The position numbers and the translations under genes are program-made. The notes under the pieces are model-generated. The model ran no database searches, was not told the DNA's origin, and worked only from the letters and a program-made list of their open reading frames with translations. From Planctomycetota bacterium (GTDB lineage Bacteria > Planctomycetota > GCA-002687715), in the NCBI GenBank assembly GCA_002683135.1, contig NYSS01000009.1, forward strand, positions 16,419 through 72,876: 56,458 nucleotides of DNA, given 5' to 3'. Positions 1 through 10,621 of the stretch are shown piece by piece; position 1 is the first letter of the stretch; each line of letters opens with the position of its first letter.

Positions 1-714
1 GCCAACCTTTACCTGGATTTTTGGCGACAGCTCGCCGCCGGGCTTGAGCAGGACCTGGCGTTCGCGGCGAGGCCGACGCTCGTAGCGGCGATGCGTGATC
101 GGGTCACCAAGAGCAACCTTGTTCGCGTGCTGCGTCCGGCCCGCGTGGCGCTGGCGTCCGAGCCTACGGGCCTTTCCTGGCGTGAGCCGGCCCAGGCGAT
201 CCGCTTGTTCTCGAACGAGCGCCTCGGCGTCAGTCCGGTCGTGAAGAGCTACCTCATCGCGCACGAGAAGCTCCTCAAGGCGAATTACCTAGACGCAGCT
301 CAGGCGTTCGAGGGTTTCAGCGAGCAGCATCCAGGGAGCCGTTTACTGGCCCTGTCCCGTTACCTGCAGGCTGAGAGCTATCGCCGCGTCGGGTTTGCGG
401 ACCACGCGCTTCGCGTGGCGAGCCAGCTTTCGTTCGGTCGACCGGCTCCAGTCATCCTGAACAACGACCCGCTCGGGACCCTCCTCTTTGTGGCTCGGCG
501 GTCCATCCCGCTCTCCGTGTTCGGGGACGGCGCCGTCGTGCCTCGCCCGGAGACTCGCGGTCTATTCCAGCCGTTCGCTGCGCCAGCCCCGTTGCAGTGG
601 TCTATTGAGGTGCGCGAGTTTGGGGCGTCCAGTAACCGCGGTGGGGGCATTCGGCTCGTGGTGCGTCCGACCCGGGGGCCCAGCGCCGAGCAGCGTCAGC
701 TACGCGACCGCTAG
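1..714 (+). CDS. TPR-like protein, 5' end outside the window
   Basis: The frame is open from base 1 with no stop before TAG at 712-714, so this is the C-terminal 237 residues of a longer protein. The first in-frame ATG (91) lies inside continuous coding sequence and is probably not the start. The middle part (about residues 85-145) has the helical, Ala/Leu/Tyr-rich pattern of tetratricopeptide repeats, with a 'DAAQAFEGFSEQHPGS' unit followed by 'ALSRYLQAESYRRVG'. The tail is Pro/Arg-rich and shows no motif I recognise. No function can be given. TPR units suggest protein-protein contacts. The next gene begins 246 bases downstream, and nothing ties the two together. Confidence 0.7.
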   Translation, partial: ANLYLDFWRQLAAGLEQDLAFAARPTLVAAMRDRVTKSNLVRVLRPARVALASEPTGLSWREPAQAIRLFSNERLGVSPVVKSYLIAHEKLLKANYLDAAQAFEGFSEQHPGSRLLALSRYLQAESYRRVGFADHALRVASQLSFGRPAPVILNNDPLGTLLFVARRSIPLSVFGDGAVVPRPETRGLFQPFAAPAPLQWSIEVREFGASSNRGGGIRLVVRPTRGPSAEQRQLRDR

Positions 715-960: not shown

Positions 961-3414
961 ATGCGCAAATCGCTGCTGATCATCACCTTCGGTCTCATCC
1001 TCGCTCCGGTGAGCCAGTCTCAGTTCATCTCCGAGATCCGGGTACCGGGCTCGCGGCTCGCGAGGCCTCACTTTCACCCCATAACGGTCGAGCAGCACAG
1101 GGTCTCGGCCACCATCACGGACGGGGTAGCCCGGACCACGGTGAGGCAGGTGTTTCGCAACCCGAACGGGATGCAGTTGGAGGGGATGTACATGTTCCCT
1201 CTGCCTGAGGACGCAGCGGTGAGCAACTTCTCCATGATGATGGGGGGAAAGATGGTCGCGGGTGAGGTCCTGGAAAGGGGCAAGGCCGCCTCGATCTACG
1301 AGGGGATCGTTCGCCGGCAGCAGGACCCGGCGCTGCTCGAGTACATGGGCAAGCGGCTGTTCCGGGCGCGGCTGTTCCCGATCCCTTCCCGGGGCGTCAG
1401 CGAGATCGAGCTCAGCTACGACCAGACGCTCATGCGTGACGGGCACACCGTCGAGTGGCGTTATCCGTACCGCACCCGTTCGGTGAGCGGCGCACCGGTG
1501 GGGCAGGCCTCCGTGCAGGTGAAGATCAACTCCACCGATCCGGTGTTGACCGTGTACTCACCGTCACACGAGGTCGACGTCGTCAAGAAGGGAGACCACG
1601 AAGCCGCCGTCAGCTACGAGTCCAATCAGGACCCGGGAGATCGCGACTTCGTCGTCGTATACGGATTGGCGAAGGATGGATCGGTCGGCGCGACCTTGTT
1701 TGCGCACGGCGAGGGAGAGGACACCGGTGCGTTCCTGTTGCTGATGGCTCCGTCGTCGGAACTCGAAAAGGGGCGCACGGTCGCGAAGGACGTGGTCTTC
1801 GTCGTCGACACCTCGGGGTCCATGTCCGGAGGCAAGATTGAACAGGTCAAGAAGGCGCTGAACTATTGCATCAACAGCATGGATGAGAAGGACCGATTCA
1901 GCATCGTTTCCTTTGCGACCGAGGCTTCGGCCTGGAAGGGCGGGCTTGTCCAGCCGACCAGGGAGAGCAGAGCGTCTGCGAAGGAGTTCGTCGCGAAGCT
2001 TCAGGCGCGTGGCGGCACCAACATCAACGACGCGCTGGTTCAGTCGTTCGGCATGAGCAAGGACAAGGACCGCCCCTTCATGGTCATCTTCATGACCGAC
2101 GGGGAGCCAACGGTCGGCGTCACCGATACCAACGGGATCCTCGGGAACGTCAAGGTGGCGAACAACGCGCTGACGCGCCTGTTCGTCTTCGGCGTCGGCG
2201 AGAATTTGAAGGTCGACCTGCTGGATCTCCTCGCTGAGCAGAACCACGGAGCGCGCGATTACGTCGGCAGCAAGGAGAACATCGAAGCTAAGGTGTCATC
2301 GTTCTTCGAGAAGGTCTCGAGCCCGGTGCTGTCGGACGTAAAGCTCGATTTCGCGGGGGTTGAGGTCAGCGAGCTGCATCCCAAGCGGTTGCCGGACCTA
2401 TTTCGGGGTTCGCAGTTGCTCGTCACCGGCCGTTTTCGCGGCGCCGGGCCGGGTGTCATCAAGCTGACAGGCAAGGTCGATGGAGAGGTGGTCGAGCACG
2501 TCTTCGAGCGCGCTTTCAACGACGGCAAGAGCAAGACATCGTTCGTGCCGCGGCTGTGGGCGGTCCGCAAGGTCGGCTACTTGATGGACCAGATTCGTCT
2601 GAACGGTGCGAACGACGAGCTCCAGAAGGAGGTCGTTCGCCTCGGCAAGAAATACGGCATCGTGACGCCATACACATCGTTCCTGGTGCTCGAGGACGCG
2701 GTGGCTGGTGCTCCAGTGCGCCCAGGGCGTGGAGGTGGAGGCGGTGCAGTGCGGAATCGCGGCGGTGCGGAGAGGCTCGGCGATCCCGCCGGGTTTGGCA
2801 CCATCAGCACTGGTCGGTTCGCGGGACTGCCTCCGAGCAGTCGGGCGTCCAAGGAGGCGAGGACTAATGGGGTGACCTTGACCCTCGATGCGCTGGGTTT
2901 GAGCGGGAATCTGAAGGACGGTCGCCAGGGTGGCAAGAAGAGCGGGGAGGGGAGCGCGCCAGGGAGCCAGCTCGGAGACCGGGACAAGGGCGAGGCCGAC
3001 GGGGTCCTGGGGGCGCGCGTCGACACACTCCATGCCAGACTCAACAAGCTCTACTTCACGGATGCGATCGCGCTCTCGACGGCGGTGAAGTCGCTGCGGG
3101 AGGCGCGTACCGCCGACGGCGAAGTCGCCGGCGGCCTCGTGCGTCGTGTCGGCAACCGAACCTTTCTCGTGCGGGCTGGGGTTACGTTGGAGAGCGCGAT
3201 CCTGGACTTGGAGCCCGCCGCGCTCTTGCGACGGCTCGTCCGGATCGAGGCGTTCTCGGCGGGGTACTTCGAGCTCCTCAAGAAGAACGGGATAGGTCGG
3301 GTGCTGGCGCTTGGGAACAGCCTGTTGTTCATCGATGGCGACCGGATTGTCCAGATCGTCCCGGCCGGCGCGCTCGAAAAGCCCAAGCCTGAAGTGGAGA
3401 AGCAGGACAAGTAG
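961..3414 (+). CDS. Secreted VIT/VWA domain protein
   Basis: This 817-residue protein starts at ATG 961, preceded by GAGGAATAAC. A signal peptide follows directly (hydrophobic core 'LLIITFGLILAP'), so I prefer this start to the longer frame from 892. Residues about 30-165 form a VIT (vault inter-alpha-trypsin) domain, with 'EGMYMFPLPEDAAVSNF' and 'RLFRARLFPIP'. A von Willebrand A domain follows with the MIDAS motif DTSGSMSGG near residue 283 and a 'MTDGEPTVG' segment. The stretch 'KKYGIVTPYTSFLVLE' is typical of this family. A Gly/Arg-rich linker near residues 585-600 leads to an unrecognised C-terminal region. The family is extracellular, probably metal-dependent in adhesion or complex formation; the specific role is unknown. 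Confidence 0.9.
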   Translation: MRKSLLIITFGLILAPVSQSQFISEIRVPGSRLARPHFHPITVEQHRVSATITDGVARTTVRQVFRNPNGMQLEGMYMFPLPEDAAVSNFSMMMGGKMVAGEVLERGKAASIYEGIVRRQQDPALLEYMGKRLFRARLFPIPSRGVSEIELSYDQTLMRDGHTVEWRYPYRTRSVSGAPVGQASVQVKINSTDPVLTVYSPSHEVDVVKKGDHEAAVSYESNQDPGDRDFVVVYGLAKDGSVGATLFAHGEGEDTGAFLLLMAPSSELEKGRTVAKDVVFVVDTSGSMSGGKIEQVKKALNYCINSMDEKDRFSIVSFATEASAWKGGLVQPTRESRASAKEFVAKLQARGGTNINDALVQSFGMSKDKDRPFMVIFMTDGEPTVGVTDTNGILGNVKVANNALTRLFVFGVGENLKVDLLDLLAEQNHGARDYVGSKENIEAKVSSFFEKVSSPVLSDVKLDFAGVEVSELHPKRLPDLFRGSQLLVTGRFRGAGPGVIKLTGKVDGEVVEHVFERAFNDGKSKTSFVPRLWAVRKVGYLMDQIRLNGANDELQKEVVRLGKKYGIVTPYTSFLVLEDAVAGAPVRPGRGGGGGAVRNRGGAERLGDPAGFGTISTGRFAGLPPSSRASKEARTNGVTLTLDALGLSGNLKDGRQGGKKSGEGSAPGSQLGDRDKGEADGVLGARVDTLHARLNKLYFTDAIALSTAVKSLREARTADGEVAGGLVRRVGNRTFLVRAGVTLESAILDLEPAALLRRLVRIEAFSAGYFELLKKNGIGRVLALGNSLLFIDGDRIVQIVPAGALEKPKPEVEKQDK

Positions 3415-4987: not shown

Positions 4988-5020
4988 AAAAAAACAACGG
5001 GTCCGCTTCCGCAAACCCGT
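4988..5020 (-). terminator. Intrinsic terminator after the CHAT/sigma/anti-sigma cassette
   Basis: Read on the minus strand, the arms ACGGGT (5020-5015) and ACCCGT (5002-4997) flank a 12-base loop. They are followed by TGTTTTTTT, complementary to the A run at 4988-4994. It lies 38 bases beyond the stop codon of the 5058-6128 gene. A stem followed by a U tract is the classical Rho-independent form. Confidence 0.7.
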
Positions 5021-5057
5021 CAGGCGTCCCGAGGTCTCTGCCTCGAAGTGCCGCTGA

Positions 5058-6128
5058 TCACTTGTTCCAGAGCAGGCGTGTGGTGATCTCGAGCGCGCGA
5101 CGGACTGCGGTGGTTCGCTGAGCGGTGGGGATGGCGCTCCACGCGCTCACCGCTTCGGCGTAGAAGCCGCGTCGAAGGAACAAATTGCCGAGCGCGTGGT
5201 GCCGTTGAGTGACGTCCGTCAACACCTCGGAGACCGTCAGGGCGACGGCCTGACATGAGCGCGCGATGTGGCGTTCGGCGATCATAAAGTCGGAGTGCGC
5301 TACGAGCCGTCGACCTGCACGGAGTTCGACTCCGTAACGTGTCCCAGGTTCAAGATCCGAAACCGTATCTGGCAGTTCGACCACGACGGACTCGCCGGCG
5401 TCGCCACCGGGCACCTCGTGACGGAACAGGGTGGTGTCCATGTCATCTGACCGGTAGAGCACCAGCATCAGGGGGCGGGCGCCGCGGCGGCACTCAATCG
5501 CAGGTCGCGCGGTCAACAAGAACCCGCGTACTCCGATCGCCGGCTCACGGTCTCCACGGACCTGCGCGGGCTCTTGGATTTCTCCGTCGCGTAGGGGTGC
5601 CCAGTCTCCACGCGTGCCGAGGTCGAGGTCGTGCAACGGGTCCTCGTCACCGTTGGCGAATCGGGCCAGCGCCAGTAGTTCACTGATCGCCGCGGTGGCC
5701 TGGCCGTCGTGTGGGTTCTGGAGCGTGCGCTCGAGCATTGTCATAGCGGCGGCAGCATCGCCGTCGGCCATGAGCCGACGGGCATCGCTTACCGGATCGC
5801 TTCCGTCGATCATGAGGGGGACGATGGCGAGCGCGACGATAACGGCTGCCGCGGCTACACCAGCCCAACGTGGGACGCGCCGCCGGCGCTCGCTGCGACA
5901 GGCAGCCTCCTCGAATGCGACGGCTTCGCGGAGCCCAGGGTCGGTGGACAGGGCGATCATGAAGGCGGCGCGCCGCCCGTGAAAAAGCTGTCCCCGGGCG
6001 TACGCCGCCACGTCATTGGCGTCGAATTCACACCCGTCGTCGCGGGACGCGGAGAGCCCCCCCTCTGCGAACTCCCTAGCCAGGTAGTCCGCGAGTCCGT
6101 CCCGATCAACGTTGCTGTCATTGAGCAT
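5058..6128 (-). CDS. Membrane-anchored anti-sigma-like protein with periplasmic TPR-like domain
   Basis: A 356-residue protein starting at an ATG. The first ~85 residues are predicted cytoplasmic and contain 'FDANDVAAYARGQLFHGRR', which resembles the short helical modules of anti-sigma proteins; I see no zinc-finger HxxxCxxC. One transmembrane helix spans about residues 88-107 after a basic stop-transfer cluster (RRRRVPR). The outer part has an Ala-rich repeat, a central beta-rich segment and a C-terminal TPR-like pair ('HALGNLFLRRGFYAEAVSAW'). It follows a sigma-factor gene on the same strand by 99 bases, the usual arrangement for a sigma/anti-sigma pair. Anti-sigma activity is inferred from topology and position, not from a recognised domain. 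Confidence 0.7.
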   Translation of the reverse strand: MLNDSNVDRDGLADYLAREFAEGGLSASRDDGCEFDANDVAAYARGQLFHGRRAAFMIALSTDPGLREAVAFEEAACRSERRRRVPRWAGVAAAAVIVALAIVPLMIDGSDPVSDARRLMADGDAAAAMTMLERTLQNPHDGQATAAISELLALARFANGDEDPLHDLDLGTRGDWAPLRDGEIQEPAQVRGDREPAIGVRGFLLTARPAIECRRGARPLMLVLYRSDDMDTTLFRHEVPGGDAGESVVVELPDTVSDLEPGTRYGVELRAGRRLVAHSDFMIAERHIARSCQAVALTVSEVLTDVTQRHHALGNLFLRRGFYAEAVSAWSAIPTAQRTTAVRRALEITTRLLWNK

Positions 6129-6227
6129 AAGGTGCTTGCTTTAAATGCTTTAAGCCCTTTTGGGCGCTTTTCCCTCAGGCGCTGCCGTTGCCTTCGTGAG
6201 TGCTTCTACGGGGGGCCACTGGGTGGA
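6129..6227 (-). promoter_or_regulatory. AT-rich leader between sigma and anti-sigma genes
   Basis: This spacer is far richer in A/T than its surroundings. On the minus strand it contains GCCC-AAAA-GGGC (about 6151-6162), a small hairpin, then AAAGCATTTAAAGCAAG just ahead of the anti-sigma ATG. It could hold an internal promoter or attenuator that sets the sigma/anti-sigma ratio. No clear -35/-10 pair can be fixed by eye. Confidence 0.3.
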
Positions 6228-7139
6228 TCATCCGGGCGGCTCAGGTTGCGATAAATCGGGCTCCGAGCCAGGTATGGGGTCACGGGCCCAGAGGGTTACG
6301 AGCTGGTCGATCAGCTGCTCCGATTCCTGTTCTTCGAGCCCGATGATCTCTCGGACGTGGCGGGTCACCGCTCGCAGGAACCGCTCCCGGACCTCCTTGT
6401 ACCAGCGGTTCATCTTGAAAGGGCTCACATCGAGTTCGGCGGCCAACTCGATCTGGGTCATTCGTTTCCTCGGCAGGACGTCCAGCATCCTCTGCTCGTC
6501 TCGATCGAGGCTGGCCATCGCGGTAGAAACGGCGCGCCGGAGGGCCTCCCCGAGCTCACTTTGCTGGACGATTTCGGGGGGGCCGGGCTCGCGGGACGCG
6601 GGCAGGAGGGCCTCGTTGGAGCCGTCTGCGTCTGCGGACAGCTGTGAGAGAGACGCCGGCTCCTTGCCCGAATGCCGTAGGTTGATCCGTTGGCGGAACA
6701 GGTTGAAGACGACCTGTCGGCCCCAGGCACCGATAGGTGCTGTGGCGCGGTAACTCGCGATCTTGCCGTCGATGAAAAAGGTCCCGAGGATGGACTCCCG
6801 AATCTCGTCCAGGAGGGCCCTTGGCGTCTGCCCGCTGAAGTGTGCGCGGACGCTCCGAAAGGCACGCTCGAGGAGCTGCTCAAATGTCGTCCATGCGGCG
6901 CCATGCCCCGCCATGAGTGCCTGCGATAGGTACACGTCTTGGAGCACGAGTCGATCCAGGATCGCTTGGAGCTCTACTGCCGTTTCCGGATCGACGGCGC
7001 GTTCAGCCGACAGGACCATGTCCACGATGCGGGTCAGCGCAGCTTCGGCGGCGTCCCGATCGATGCCGAGATCGCCGTACGCTTGGCGTCCCGCGTCGAG
7101 CACTGCGTCGACTTGTTGCGCATCAGGCGTTTGTCGCAC
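6228..7139 (-). CDS. Divergent sigma-70 family RNA polymerase sigma factor
   Basis: About 303 residues from GTG 7139, which lies two bases past the stop of the CHAT gene. A TTG at 7187 (319 residues, 46-base overlap) is possible, and neither start has a good ribosome site. The central part resembles sigma region 2 in a weak form ('APIGAWGRQVVFNLFRQRI'). Near residues 215-265 is a region-4 helix-turn-helix: 'LDRDEQRMLDVLPRKRMTQ' followed by 'IELAAELDVSPFKMNRWYK'. The linker between regions is long and acidic/polar, and a C-terminal extension follows region 4, so it is not a standard ECF factor. It lies between a secreted TPR-CHAT protein and an anti-sigma-like protein. Its likely job is to drive its own operon in response to a surface signal (inference). 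Confidence 0.75.
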   Translation of the reverse strand: MRQTPDAQQVDAVLDAGRQAYGDLGIDRDAAEAALTRIVDMVLSAERAVDPETAVELQAILDRLVLQDVYLSQALMAGHGAAWTTFEQLLERAFRSVRAHFSGQTPRALLDEIRESILGTFFIDGKIASYRATAPIGAWGRQVVFNLFRQRINLRHSGKEPASLSQLSADADGSNEALLPASREPGPPEIVQQSELGEALRRAVSTAMASLDRDEQRMLDVLPRKRMTQIELAAELDVSPFKMNRWYKEVRERFLRAVTRHVREIIGLEEQESEQLIDQLVTLWARDPIPGSEPDLSQPEPPG

Positions 7140-7141
7140 GC

Positions 7142-10100
7142 CTACGGGGTACCGACAACGAAGAAAGGTGCCCAGAAACCGGGCCAACTCGTTTTCGGCG
7201 ACCCTAGCAGAGCACGCTGAGCAGTCAGCAGGGCGCGCGCCGGCTGCTCGTGTTTGCTACCCATGCGGGCGTAAAGGAGCTGCATCAAGCGCGATGTCTT
7301 GTCGTCGACGATCTCGATGTTCGACGCCAAGACCCGCCTCGCCCCCGCGATGAGGAACGCCCGGGGCAACCCGATGAGCCCTTCGGGGCCAGCGGTCTTG
7401 CCATGGCCCGTTGCGCACGCGGACAGAACGACGAGATTGGTGTCGATGAGACGCATCCCCATGACATCGGCCGGCTTCAGCTCGGTTGGATCGCCGCCGG
7501 CCTCGTCCGGCGCCAGCAGGAGGGCCGCGACGCGGCCTCGGCGTGTGTGGGTCGCGATGTGCAAGGTGCCGAAGCGACCTGGTCGCTGGGCTTCCATGTG
7601 ACCACGGGTGGCGCGTGGGCCCACGAGGACCGTGGCGTTGTCAGAGAGCTCGGCGATGGCCTCGATTTCCGTGCGCGCGTGAGGAAGGGGCGTGAAGCTC
7701 TTGTGACCCAGGTCTGGATCGCCGACGAGCAGCACCGTGCGTTCGGGCTTTGCTGGGGGACGTTCCACTAACAGCGTCAGCGTTGCGAGGCTCGGCGCAA
7801 CGGTCAGGGCTTCCAGGCCGGGGCGGGCGGAGAGGAAGGGGACGTTGGACAGGTCGCGCCCGTCGGCGGGAGTCGCCACCGGCCGCTCGACGAGGGCGCC
7901 GAAGGGCAGCCCGTTCAGGACACCGTCCGGAACGATGACCAACTCGGTCGCGTCTCGCACGAGGTGGGAGACCGGTCCGATGAGTTCCCGCCACAAGCGA
8001 TGACCGAAATCCACCACCGCGCCGGCCTTGTACGCGTTGGGTTCGCCTTGGAGGTTGGAGAGCAGCGAGTAGACCTGGCGCTCGAGCCCCTTGCGATCGA
8101 GGGCCATTTCGTGGACTTCCGCGTGGTCGCCTCTGAGGCCGAACACATAGCAGCCTCGGCCCGTCAGCGAATAGACGAGGACCGTTCGCCCATCGACCAG
8201 GAGAGCGTCCAACCCATCACCGTCGAGCTTGCGCGGTCGTAGGAGTCCGATCTCCTCGTTTGCTCCGGTCCGCGCCACCATGCGTGCTTCCGCAGCAGCT
8301 ACGAGGGTCCGCAGGCTGCGTGCGCGGTTCTCCTCGAGGAACAGCAGCGCTTGTCTGGCACGCGCGGGCGACCCGTGGCGTTGGGCGGCCTTGAGGTGCA
8401 GGTAGGCCATCCGGTCGTGGATAGCTTCGAATCGGGCGGAGAGCCCGTCTGGTGCCCGCCAACGTAGACCTGCGCGGAGGCGACTCTCGAGCCGCGCGGC
8501 CTTGGTGTAGTGGTGGAGCGCTGTCTCGGGATCACCTGAGGCCTCTGCTGCGCGCGCGATAATGGCCTCCATGCTCGCGTCCACCTCGGCCCAGGCCAGC
8601 GCCCTGACAGCCCCGTCCGGACGGTCGAGGCTTTGGTGGTAAGTGCGCGCATCCTCCACCACCTCATGGGCGGCGCTGGTGTTCGTCGTCGCCAAAGAGA
8701 TCTCGAGGACGAGCTCGTATGCACGCAGCGTCTCCGCCGCTACCCGCAACGTGCCGAAACGGCCGCGGCCTTCCTTCTTGAGGTCGATGATCGCGTCGCC
8801 CAGTGCGTCGACCAGCGCTTGGGTCCGCTTCGGATCCCGTTGCGATTCGTCGAGGGCTCGCCACGCAGACTCGGCGCGCAGACGGCGCCCTTCACCTCGC
8901 AGGGCGGGCTGTGACTTGAGGAACGCGCCACCCTCGCGCAATGCGTCGTCGAGCCGTTCGAGAGCCTCGTTGGGCCGTCCGCAGCTCAGCAGGATGTCGG
9001 CGATGCCGAGATCCGACACGAACATCTGCCACCGCGGATTGACCCGCGCCGCTTTGGCGTACTCCCGTGCATCGAACGCAGCCTCCAGGGCCTCGTTTGC
9101 CTCACCGAGTTCCAGCAGGATGGCGCTCTTGAACCACAGCGCGCGCACCCGATCGACTGAGGTGGCGTCCTTGAGGACAGACCGGAGGGCGCGAGCGCAG
9201 GCATCCAGGGCGCCTTCGAGGTCGCCGTCCAGTTTGCGGACCAGAGCGTGTGCCAGAGCGTCGCGGCTCTGCAGCCGTGCGAGGTCGTTAGCTGGTACGC
9301 GTTCGCGGTCCAGGTCGGCGGTCGCGACCAGTGCTTTCCGCGCGTCGCCGATGCGACCGCGAAGGGCCTGACACGCTGCCTCATGCAGCCGGGCTTGCCA
9401 CTCGAGCCCTGGGTCTTGGCTCCGCGTGAGGGCTCGCTGCGCCGTACGGACGCCCGCCGCGTAGTCGCCGAGCGTCTCCTTGACCTGGGCCAGGAGGACC
9501 AACATTTGAGCGGCGTCGTCGTCAGCGACGCCGGGACGCTCCAGCGCCCGGTTTAGTATGTCGTGCCCCGATGACAGCTGCCCATTGGCGATCCGTACGA
9601 ACGCGACCTGGACGTACCAGGAACCTAGCTGGGCTCGTCGATCCGCCCGCAGGTCATCGGCTGGTAGGGCCGAGACGCCCTGCTCGATGGCAGGGATCAT
9701 GCGCTCGAGGGACGTGGCGGCGTCCTTTGCTGCCTGCAGGTACGAGCGGTTCTTGTAGTACTCGAGTTCGAGCGAGAGCAGGTCGGCCCGCAGCACGGGG
9801 TCGATGCCCTCCAGATCGACGCAGGCTCTCGCGGAGCGCAACGCGGCGCCGGCCTTCTCCGTTTCTCCGCCCCTCAGATAGGAGTGCGCGAGGTCGCGTT
9901 CGGCGATGAAGTATCGGACATCTCGGTCGAAGCCGTGCTTGGCGAGACAGGCGGCCAAGGCCTCGATATGACCTCGTGACGCCGCTCGACGGGTCACGGA
10001 GCGGCCAGAGCCGCCCTGATTGTCGAGCACCACGCGGACCGCATGGGCGAAACGGAGTAGATCGCGATCCTCGTGCTCACGGGAGAACCTCCGCATTTGC

Positions 10101-10621
10101 TCGACGATCCCGCGAACCTGCCTGAGGTTCGCGTCCACGCGGTCAGCCGGGAGCGGGGAGATGGCGCGGAACTTACCGAACTCGCTGTAGAACTTGGTGA
10201 AGAGACGAGCCCGCCGCTCCAGCGCCCGCTCCGAGAGGTTCAGGACCGTGCGTGTGTCGACCGACAGGGTGTCGTTACCGAGGATGCGCTCGGAGCGCGT
10301 CGCGAAGTCCCGGACGAGCGCCTCCGCGTCCCCGGCCACCAGGGTGTCGGGATTTCCGGTGCGATCGCTGACCGCTACTCGGAGCAGGCGCCTGAAGCCG
10401 TCGACGAGGGTGTGCCGACGAGCCTCGACGATGGTGTCGCGGTCCGCTGATTTAGCGGTAGCGAACCGCACCAGGTCGGGTTGCAAGGGTGGAAGCGGTG
10501 AGCCATCCGGGTGCTGTGCACGGACCCCTACCGTCAGCGCGAAGGTGGCGAGCAGCGCTATGGCGCCCGCGCGGCAGCGGGGTACGCACCGCGTGGGCTT
10601 GGGGGATACGGAGCCCTTCAT
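7142..10621 (-). CDS. Secreted TPR-CHAT caspase-like protein
   Basis: A 1159-residue protein. I chose ATG 10621 because it opens a signal peptide ('AGAIALLATFALTVGVRAQ'); the longer frame from 10789 adds Pro-rich non-coding-like sequence. Residues about 150-800 are a long array of TPR units. The C-terminal ~350 residues form a CHAT (caspase HetF-associated with TPRs) domain. It has 'LVIVPDGVLNGLPFGALV', His1025 in 'LHIATHTRRG', Cys1069 in 'LSACATGHGK' and the closing 'GFWAPFFVVG'. His and Cys are the catalytic pair of caspase-like peptidases, so the site looks intact. Some CHAT proteins are proven proteases (separase fold; Craspase TPR-CHAT). Export to the periplasm is predicted from the signal peptide. 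The sigma-factor gene begins two bases after its stop. Confidence 0.88.
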   Translation of the reverse strand: MKGSVSPKPTRCVPRCRAGAIALLATFALTVGVRAQHPDGSPLPPLQPDLVRFATAKSADRDTIVEARRHTLVDGFRRLLRVAVSDRTGNPDTLVAGDAEALVRDFATRSERILGNDTLSVDTRTVLNLSERALERRARLFTKFYSEFGKFRAISPLPADRVDANLRQVRGIVEQMRRFSREHEDRDLLRFAHAVRVVLDNQGGSGRSVTRRAASRGHIEALAACLAKHGFDRDVRYFIAERDLAHSYLRGGETEKAGAALRSARACVDLEGIDPVLRADLLSLELEYYKNRSYLQAAKDAATSLERMIPAIEQGVSALPADDLRADRRAQLGSWYVQVAFVRIANGQLSSGHDILNRALERPGVADDDAAQMLVLLAQVKETLGDYAAGVRTAQRALTRSQDPGLEWQARLHEAACQALRGRIGDARKALVATADLDRERVPANDLARLQSRDALAHALVRKLDGDLEGALDACARALRSVLKDATSVDRVRALWFKSAILLELGEANEALEAAFDAREYAKAARVNPRWQMFVSDLGIADILLSCGRPNEALERLDDALREGGAFLKSQPALRGEGRRLRAESAWRALDESQRDPKRTQALVDALGDAIIDLKKEGRGRFGTLRVAAETLRAYELVLEISLATTNTSAAHEVVEDARTYHQSLDRPDGAVRALAWAEVDASMEAIIARAAEASGDPETALHHYTKAARLESRLRAGLRWRAPDGLSARFEAIHDRMAYLHLKAAQRHGSPARARQALLFLEENRARSLRTLVAAAEARMVARTGANEEIGLLRPRKLDGDGLDALLVDGRTVLVYSLTGRGCYVFGLRGDHAEVHEMALDRKGLERQVYSLLSNLQGEPNAYKAGAVVDFGHRLWRELIGPVSHLVRDATELVIVPDGVLNGLPFGALVERPVATPADGRDLSNVPFLSARPGLEALTVAPSLATLTLLVERPPAKPERTVLLVGDPDLGHKSFTPLPHARTEIEAIAELSDNATVLVGPRATRGHMEAQRPGRFGTLHIATHTRRGRVAALLLAPDEAGGDPTELKPADVMGMRLIDTNLVVLSACATGHGKTAGPEGLIGLPRAFLIAGARRVLASNIEIVDDKTSRLMQLLYARMGSKHEQPARALLTAQRALLGSPKTSWPGFWAPFFVVGTP

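Follow-up and report, generated by a model that had tools for sequence, protein, structure and literature searches.

The window, which is the whole stretch of planctomycete DNA analysed here (56,458 nucleotides), contains three minus-strand genes encoding a TPR-CHAT protein, an ECF-like sigma factor and a membrane protein with a single helix (Table 1). The sequence-only reading had described the trio as tightly packed and closed by an intrinsic terminator, and both descriptions hold. Open reading frames were found at the expected places, with 2 bases between the CHAT stop and the sigma start and a gap of 99 bases before the third gene. Of four matches to the terminator pattern, only one is located at the operon end, and it folds with -19.4 kcal/mol (z = -2.9). 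The window's genome encodes one strong CHAT domain only, that of the first gene.

Table 1. Features of the CHAT-sigma-anti-sigma locus in the window, and promoter-like sites at related loci
Feature	Position	Strand	Details
TPR-CHAT gene	7142..10621	minus	ATG 10621, stop 7144-7142; 1159 aa, predicted exported
Signal-peptide-like N-terminus	10514..10621	minus	residues 1-36; MKGSVSPKPTRCVPRCRAGAIALLATFALTVGVRAQ; hydrophobic core, ...VRAQ
TPR-like helical superhelix	8267..9919	minus	residues about 235-785; helix pairs in model, TPR_12/TPR_8 matches
CHAT domain	7151..8008	minus	residues 872-1157; Pfam PF12770
His1025 codon, predicted catalytic	7547..7549	minus	kept in 23/23 readable cassette CHATs
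Cys1069 codon, predicted catalytic	7415..7417	minus	kept in 23/23 readable cassette CHATs
ECF-like sigma gene	6228..7139	minus	GTG 7139, stop 6230-6228; 303 aa, N-terminal extension
Single-helix membrane anti-sigma gene (predicted)	5058..6128	minus	ATG 6128, stop 5060-5058; 356 aa
Inner anti-sigma domain, zinc-less	5904..6032	minus	residues 33-75; aligned with Hx3CxxC domains
Transmembrane helix	5808..5864	minus	residues 89-107; KD hydropathy 2.65
Outer FN3/Ig-like beta-sandwich	5283..5540	minus	residues 197-282; model strands mostly pLDDT 80-90
Outer C-terminal TPR-like helices	5067..5273	minus	residues 286-354; model
Intrinsic terminator	4988..5022	minus	12-pair stem 5022-4995 + T7
GGGGTCAATTC-N14-17-GTCNYC sites	L105 8559, 10356; L110 7983, 9751; L029 8692(-)		variants in L106, L108, L113

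The CHAT domain belongs to Pfam family PF12770, whose cut-off of 24 bits it exceeds with 169 (E = 1.6e-49). The His/Cys pair, previously reported as intact, is indeed present and, in the structure model, H1025 and C1069 sit where two neighbouring strands end, as the caspase fold has them. Family match and dyad together make the protein a predicted clan CD protease. Two structure models of moderate confidence were obtained (pLDDT 68.7 and 70.7), the latter being the AlphaFold2 model of the TPR-CHAT protein from a four-sequence input, in which a TPR superhelix (TPR_12 match, 3e-5) is followed by a caspase-type fold. Its fold matches found by Foldseek comprise separase, DdvA (4e-11) and the TPR-CHAT of Craspase/Csx29 (1.9e-7). 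The N-terminus looks like the signal peptide that had been proposed, as judged from hydropathy and from comparison with relatives: similar N-termini are found in L007-L010 and in nearly all complete or readable cassette CHATs, the exceptions being L113 (ambiguous), L115 (cut) and L121 (a membrane helix instead).

The sigma gene product matches TIGR03001 (5e-13) and TIGR02937 (6e-7), and the corresponding family profile matches and spans solved ECF sigma structures. The label "divergent" given to it earlier is right, because both TIGR matches fall below their curated cut-offs. TIGR03001 is the best match and lies far under its cut-off, and membership of that family was therefore rejected.

The third gene product, searched alone against family models, gave no significant match. 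The profile of the window-clade proteins, on the other hand, aligns with the anti-sigma factors of the other cassettes both in the inner part (probability 97.3, E 1.7e-11) and, separately, in the outer part (97.4, E 1.2e-11), these E-values being one-template values. Several of the aligned proteins are of the zinc-finger (ZAS) type and members of zf-HC2; the Hx3CxxC motif is present in L028, L111, L112, L114, L116, L117 and L121. In the window protein the alignment shows the Cys positions replaced and the motif absent, which places it outside the ZAS subgroup. The single strong helix agrees with the one membrane helix previously noticed, and since six K/R residues precede it and two follow, an N-in topology is favoured. 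Homology, helix and charge bias thus point to a membrane anti-sigma plan, with a cytoplasmic anti-sigma domain and one membrane helix, and the earlier assignment of this gene as an anti-sigma is borne out as far as homology to a family with zinc-finger anti-sigmas can tell.

The outer domain had been called TPR-like, which is correct only in part: the model contains helices at residues 112-158 and again at the C-terminus, with a beta-sandwich between them. The best Foldseek matches of this domain reach only E about 2e-3. The plan is shared: a short inner domain, one helix, an FN3-like sandwich and C-terminal TPR-like helices with a conserved A-H-x-A-x-R-x-G/L-x-x-E-A motif recur across the 28 anti-sigmas compared (the L122 sequence being cut by a contig end). 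The family profile (A7) matches RslA (3hug, 1.4e-4), MtxA (4.8e-4), FN3 (1e-3) and, weakly, the N-terminal anti-sigma domain of DdvA (8rlz, E 0.03). DUF928, a candidate for the identity of the outer domain, was rejected: PF06051 has no match in the window's own genome, and among 20 family members a single one matches it, at E 1.7e-3.

Conservation of the CHAT-sigma-anti-sigma order in relatives had been set beforehand as a test of joint function. The sigma protein was found in 4 of the 6 species of the window's family, one in each of its four genera, and the order is the same in all four (G000, G003, G005, G002), in a syntenic place. The test is thus passed, and the proposed refutation by lack of synteny fails. 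In the window, L007 and L009 the neighbours of the trio are VIT-VWA and TPR genes at one end, cytochrome and aldolase genes at the other; the aldolase is presumed from our own reading, while the other window flanks were named by family match. The expression "self-contained cassette" must not imply mobility, because the relatives have the same flanking genes. Synteny at this level is vertical inheritance in one place, and the order within the family is therefore weak evidence of joint function. As a separate observation, an ordinary ECF sigma gene and a zinc-finger anti-sigma gene lie upstream of the VIT-VWA gene (961-3411), at L123 5169-7130 (G000:C49) and continuing into window positions 1-714.

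With a profile built from seven sigmas (A4), 392 planctomycete genomes were searched, which brought up 20 further loci, mostly from other planctomycete families. In 16 of them (L104-L118, L121) the sigma gene has a TPR-CHAT gene as its neighbour; the others are L103 (on a short contig), L119, L120 and L122. With a span of 13 kb, 1.0 such locus was expected (P about 6e-19, the loci being treated as independent although they are homologous), in a set whose genomes carry from 0 to 42 CHAT genes. Counted per genome, CHAT-linked sigmas occur in 11 of 14 (P about 4e-14, independence again assumed). In the reverse control, 20 CHAT-anchored loci with about 27 CHAT open reading frames yielded a single cassette (L135), and CHAT abundance therefore does not explain the linkage. 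CHAT is not required by every sigma of the wider family, because L027, L030, L119, L120 and L122 go without it, L119 also lacking a clear anti-sigma. At L027 (2821-7261) the CHAT-less sigma/anti-sigma pair adjoins a gene for a secreted protein with a HEYGH metalloprotease-like motif and no Pfam match. As to occurrence beyond the Planctomycetota, a single scan of GTDB genomes, made with conserved peptides, gave family relatives only, and no such sigma lies beside the CHAT genes at the four plasmid matches inspected.

Rearrangements are better evidence than these P values, because the loci are not independent and the profile was built from CHAT-linked sigmas. The CHAT gene is found upstream on the same strand, divergent, downstream of the anti-sigma gene, convergent or fused, and at least 8 changes of arrangement are required on the sigma tree of the CHAT-linked loci. 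In L028 one sigma/anti-sigma pair is flanked by two CHATs. The deep node uniting the window clade with the rest of the sigma tree is weak (31/56), and the cassette CHATs cluster, yet do not form one clade on the CHAT tree (6 changes vs 16.7 in shuffles); for these reasons CHAT may have been recruited to sigma pairs repeatedly. The natural fusion is found in L121 (G109:C39), where a 1696-residue open reading frame directly 3' of the sigma gene runs from an anti-sigma domain (zf-HC2 38-67, at its cut-off) through a membrane helix (94-112), the family outer domain and TPRs to a CHAT domain (1362-1688, E 5e-42). If the helix is as predicted, this CHAT would be on the outer side.

The closest known system is DdvS/DdvA of Myxococcus xanthus, in which, as in the window, an ECF sigma and a membrane anti-sigma go with a CHAT domain whose His and Cys are retained. 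DdvS is active once DdvA has been inactivated (PMC4374960), and a review describes one sigma/anti-sigma pair of this sort as the driver of a type III-B CRISPR system (PMC8156234). DdvA, whose structures (PDB 8rot, 8rw5, 8rlz) carry the title "transmembrane anti-sigma factor DdvA" and the molecule name "CHAT domain-containing protein", is the solved structure closest in sequence (E 1.6e-11) and also a fold match. We take the type III-B pair of that review to be DdvS/DdvA. In DdvA the CHAT lies within the anti-sigma chain, an arrangement found in L121, whereas in the window the TPR-CHAT is a separate protein bearing a predicted signal peptide and the anti-sigma has an FN3-like outer domain of its own and no zinc motif.

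The second relative is the type III-E Csx29/Csx30/CASP-sigma system, which likewise unites a TPR-CHAT, a sigma inhibitor and an ECF sigma in one locus. Csx29 cleaves Csx30, the inhibitor of CASP-sigma, and the cut relieves inhibition; unlike what is proposed for the window, Csx29 is activated by Cas7-11 and target RNA, which makes the system cytoplasmic, and Csx30 was soluble when purified (PMC10028731). The window differs by predicted export and a membrane anti-sigma. No cas genes were noticed among the neighbours when the loci were read, and the Cas10 palm is absent from G000 and from 8 of 9 other cassette genomes, a result uninformative on type III-E, which itself lacks Cas10. A dedicated protease for a dedicated anti-sigma is also found in the CalpL/CalpT/CalpS system of type III CRISPR, where CalpL cleaves the anti-sigma CalpT (PMC11417357), although there the protease is of the Lon type, the signal is cyclic oligoadenylate and the process is intracellular. 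Neighbourhoods of EACC/caspase genes with an ECF sigma and DUF1822 resemble the window in linking a caspase-fold protease to an ECF sigma and a TPR protein; they have other caspase-fold and partner domains and were described as immunity or conflict systems, not envelope signalling (PMC8195603). In the RseA/DegS/RseP and RsiW-type proteolytic pathways the anti-sigma has, as in the window, a single helix and an outer domain, but the cassette contains no DegS-type protease and the CHAT would make the first cut. The inner domain of RseA is also zinc-less. The combination of CHAT and sigma inhibitor is thus already known in two forms, DdvA and Csx29/Csx30, and the window system is a split, exported variant of the DdvA-type design, less new than the sequence-only reading supposed. 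A limited literature search gave no description of a membrane anti-sigma paired with a TPR-CHAT that is exported as a separate protein.

Promoter-like motifs offer a partial view of regulation. In the eight f59 genomes, GGGGTCAATTC-N14-17-GTCNYC occurs five times, every time at a cassette, three sites being ahead of the sigma gene and two ahead of a neighbouring beta-lactamase-family lipoprotein gene; since the pattern was derived from its own sites, the informative part is that there are no other sites and none in the reversed control. The ECF consensus GGAAC-N-GTC was not found ahead of the window's CHAT gene, and the window's own clade yielded no established promoter motif. A conserved TTTTnACCTCCC...ATCC-GTAnnAT sequence (TTTT-ACCTCCC block) precedes the CHAT gene in the window (10754-10720, minus strand), in L007 (10360, minus) and partly in L009 (6887, plus) and is a possible promoter of the window clade, to be taken only as a lead. 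The cassette neighbours include secreted hydrolases and lipoproteins.

It is very probable that the trio works as a single surface-signalling unit. The full explanation, in which an exported TPR-CHAT cuts the anti-sigma and so frees the sigma, is given a probability of about 0.5. The one-helix anti-sigma would use its cytoplasmic domain to tether the ECF-like sigma to the inner membrane. The exported TPR-CHAT would act on the outer FN3-like and helical domain of the anti-sigma; from hydropathy only, CHAT and this domain are predicted to face the same compartment. Recognition of a signal or of the anti-sigma by the TPRs would activate the CHAT, the activated CHAT would make the first cut, general proteases (RseP-type M50, ClpXP) would complete the breakdown, and the released sigma would transcribe a small local regulon. 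Sigma binding, cleavage and signal are steps that we infer. The window's genome encodes M50 proteases of the RseP type, so CHAT would replace the first cut at most. CHAT may be the first-site protease of the anti-sigma, at slightly less than even odds.

The main rival to cleavage by CHAT, and one that keeps a substantial minority of the probability, regards the TPR-CHAT as a sensor that does not cut or cuts only itself: it would dock on the outer domain, and a change of shape or complex would open the anti-sigma to envelope proteases, the window being DdvA as two polypeptides. The CHAT inside the anti-sigma chain in DdvA and in the L121 fusion fits such docking, as do the encoded RseP-type proteases and the existence of CHAT-less anti-sigmas, for which other release routes can work; the retention of His and Cys in 23/23 cassettes despite great divergence goes beyond the needs of a pure scaffold. 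It is improbable that CHAT is instead a target of the sigma, exported as a protease for other proteins and linked for regulation only. Divergent CHAT/sigma pairs do have a common intergenic region with a promoter-like motif, and there are the secreted hydrolases and lipoproteins nearby, but the L121 fusion has CHAT in the anti-sigma protein, the f59 motif faces the sigma and lipoprotein genes rather than CHAT, and CHAT is the first gene of the window operon. An inherited or chance neighbourhood without joint function, to which the synteny of the whole region within the window's family would lend itself, is hardly credible given the 16 of 20 further loci, the linkage kept through repeated rearrangement and the fusion.

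The trio recurs across the phylum in many orders and in one fused form, and bacteria may therefore control sigmas via CHAT outside the inner membrane. We tentatively propose, well short of even odds, an extracytoplasmic caspase-type signalling in which exported TPR-CHATs would be dedicated first-site proteases in many planctomycetes, the CRISPR-associated Csx29/Csx30/CASP-sigma and the fused DdvA being relatives of this more general design. If the proposed reading of the window is true, caspase-like CHAT proteins exert control over transcription from the outer side of the inner membrane, and both DdvA and the CHAT protease that RNA activates in type III-E CRISPR are linked to a wider, non-CRISPR family. 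The natural split and fused forms would then provide a set for testing the role of CHAT in DdvA.

CHAT genes were also seen in other contexts. From 18 to 42 of them are present in G106, G164, G244, G189, G121, G067 and G026, mostly without a sigma neighbour, which amounts to an expansion, and in CHAT-rich planctomycete genomes they are sometimes in tandem, with five consecutive genes in L146. On a Stanieria plasmid (L131, 3256-8597) a CHAT gene lies beside a DUF1822 gene, which fits the published caspase/ECF/DUF1822 theme, and on a Caballeronia plasmid (L130, 3513-7663) a TPR-CHAT gene lies beside a two-partner secretion (FhaC-type) pair and a filamentous haemagglutinin gene.
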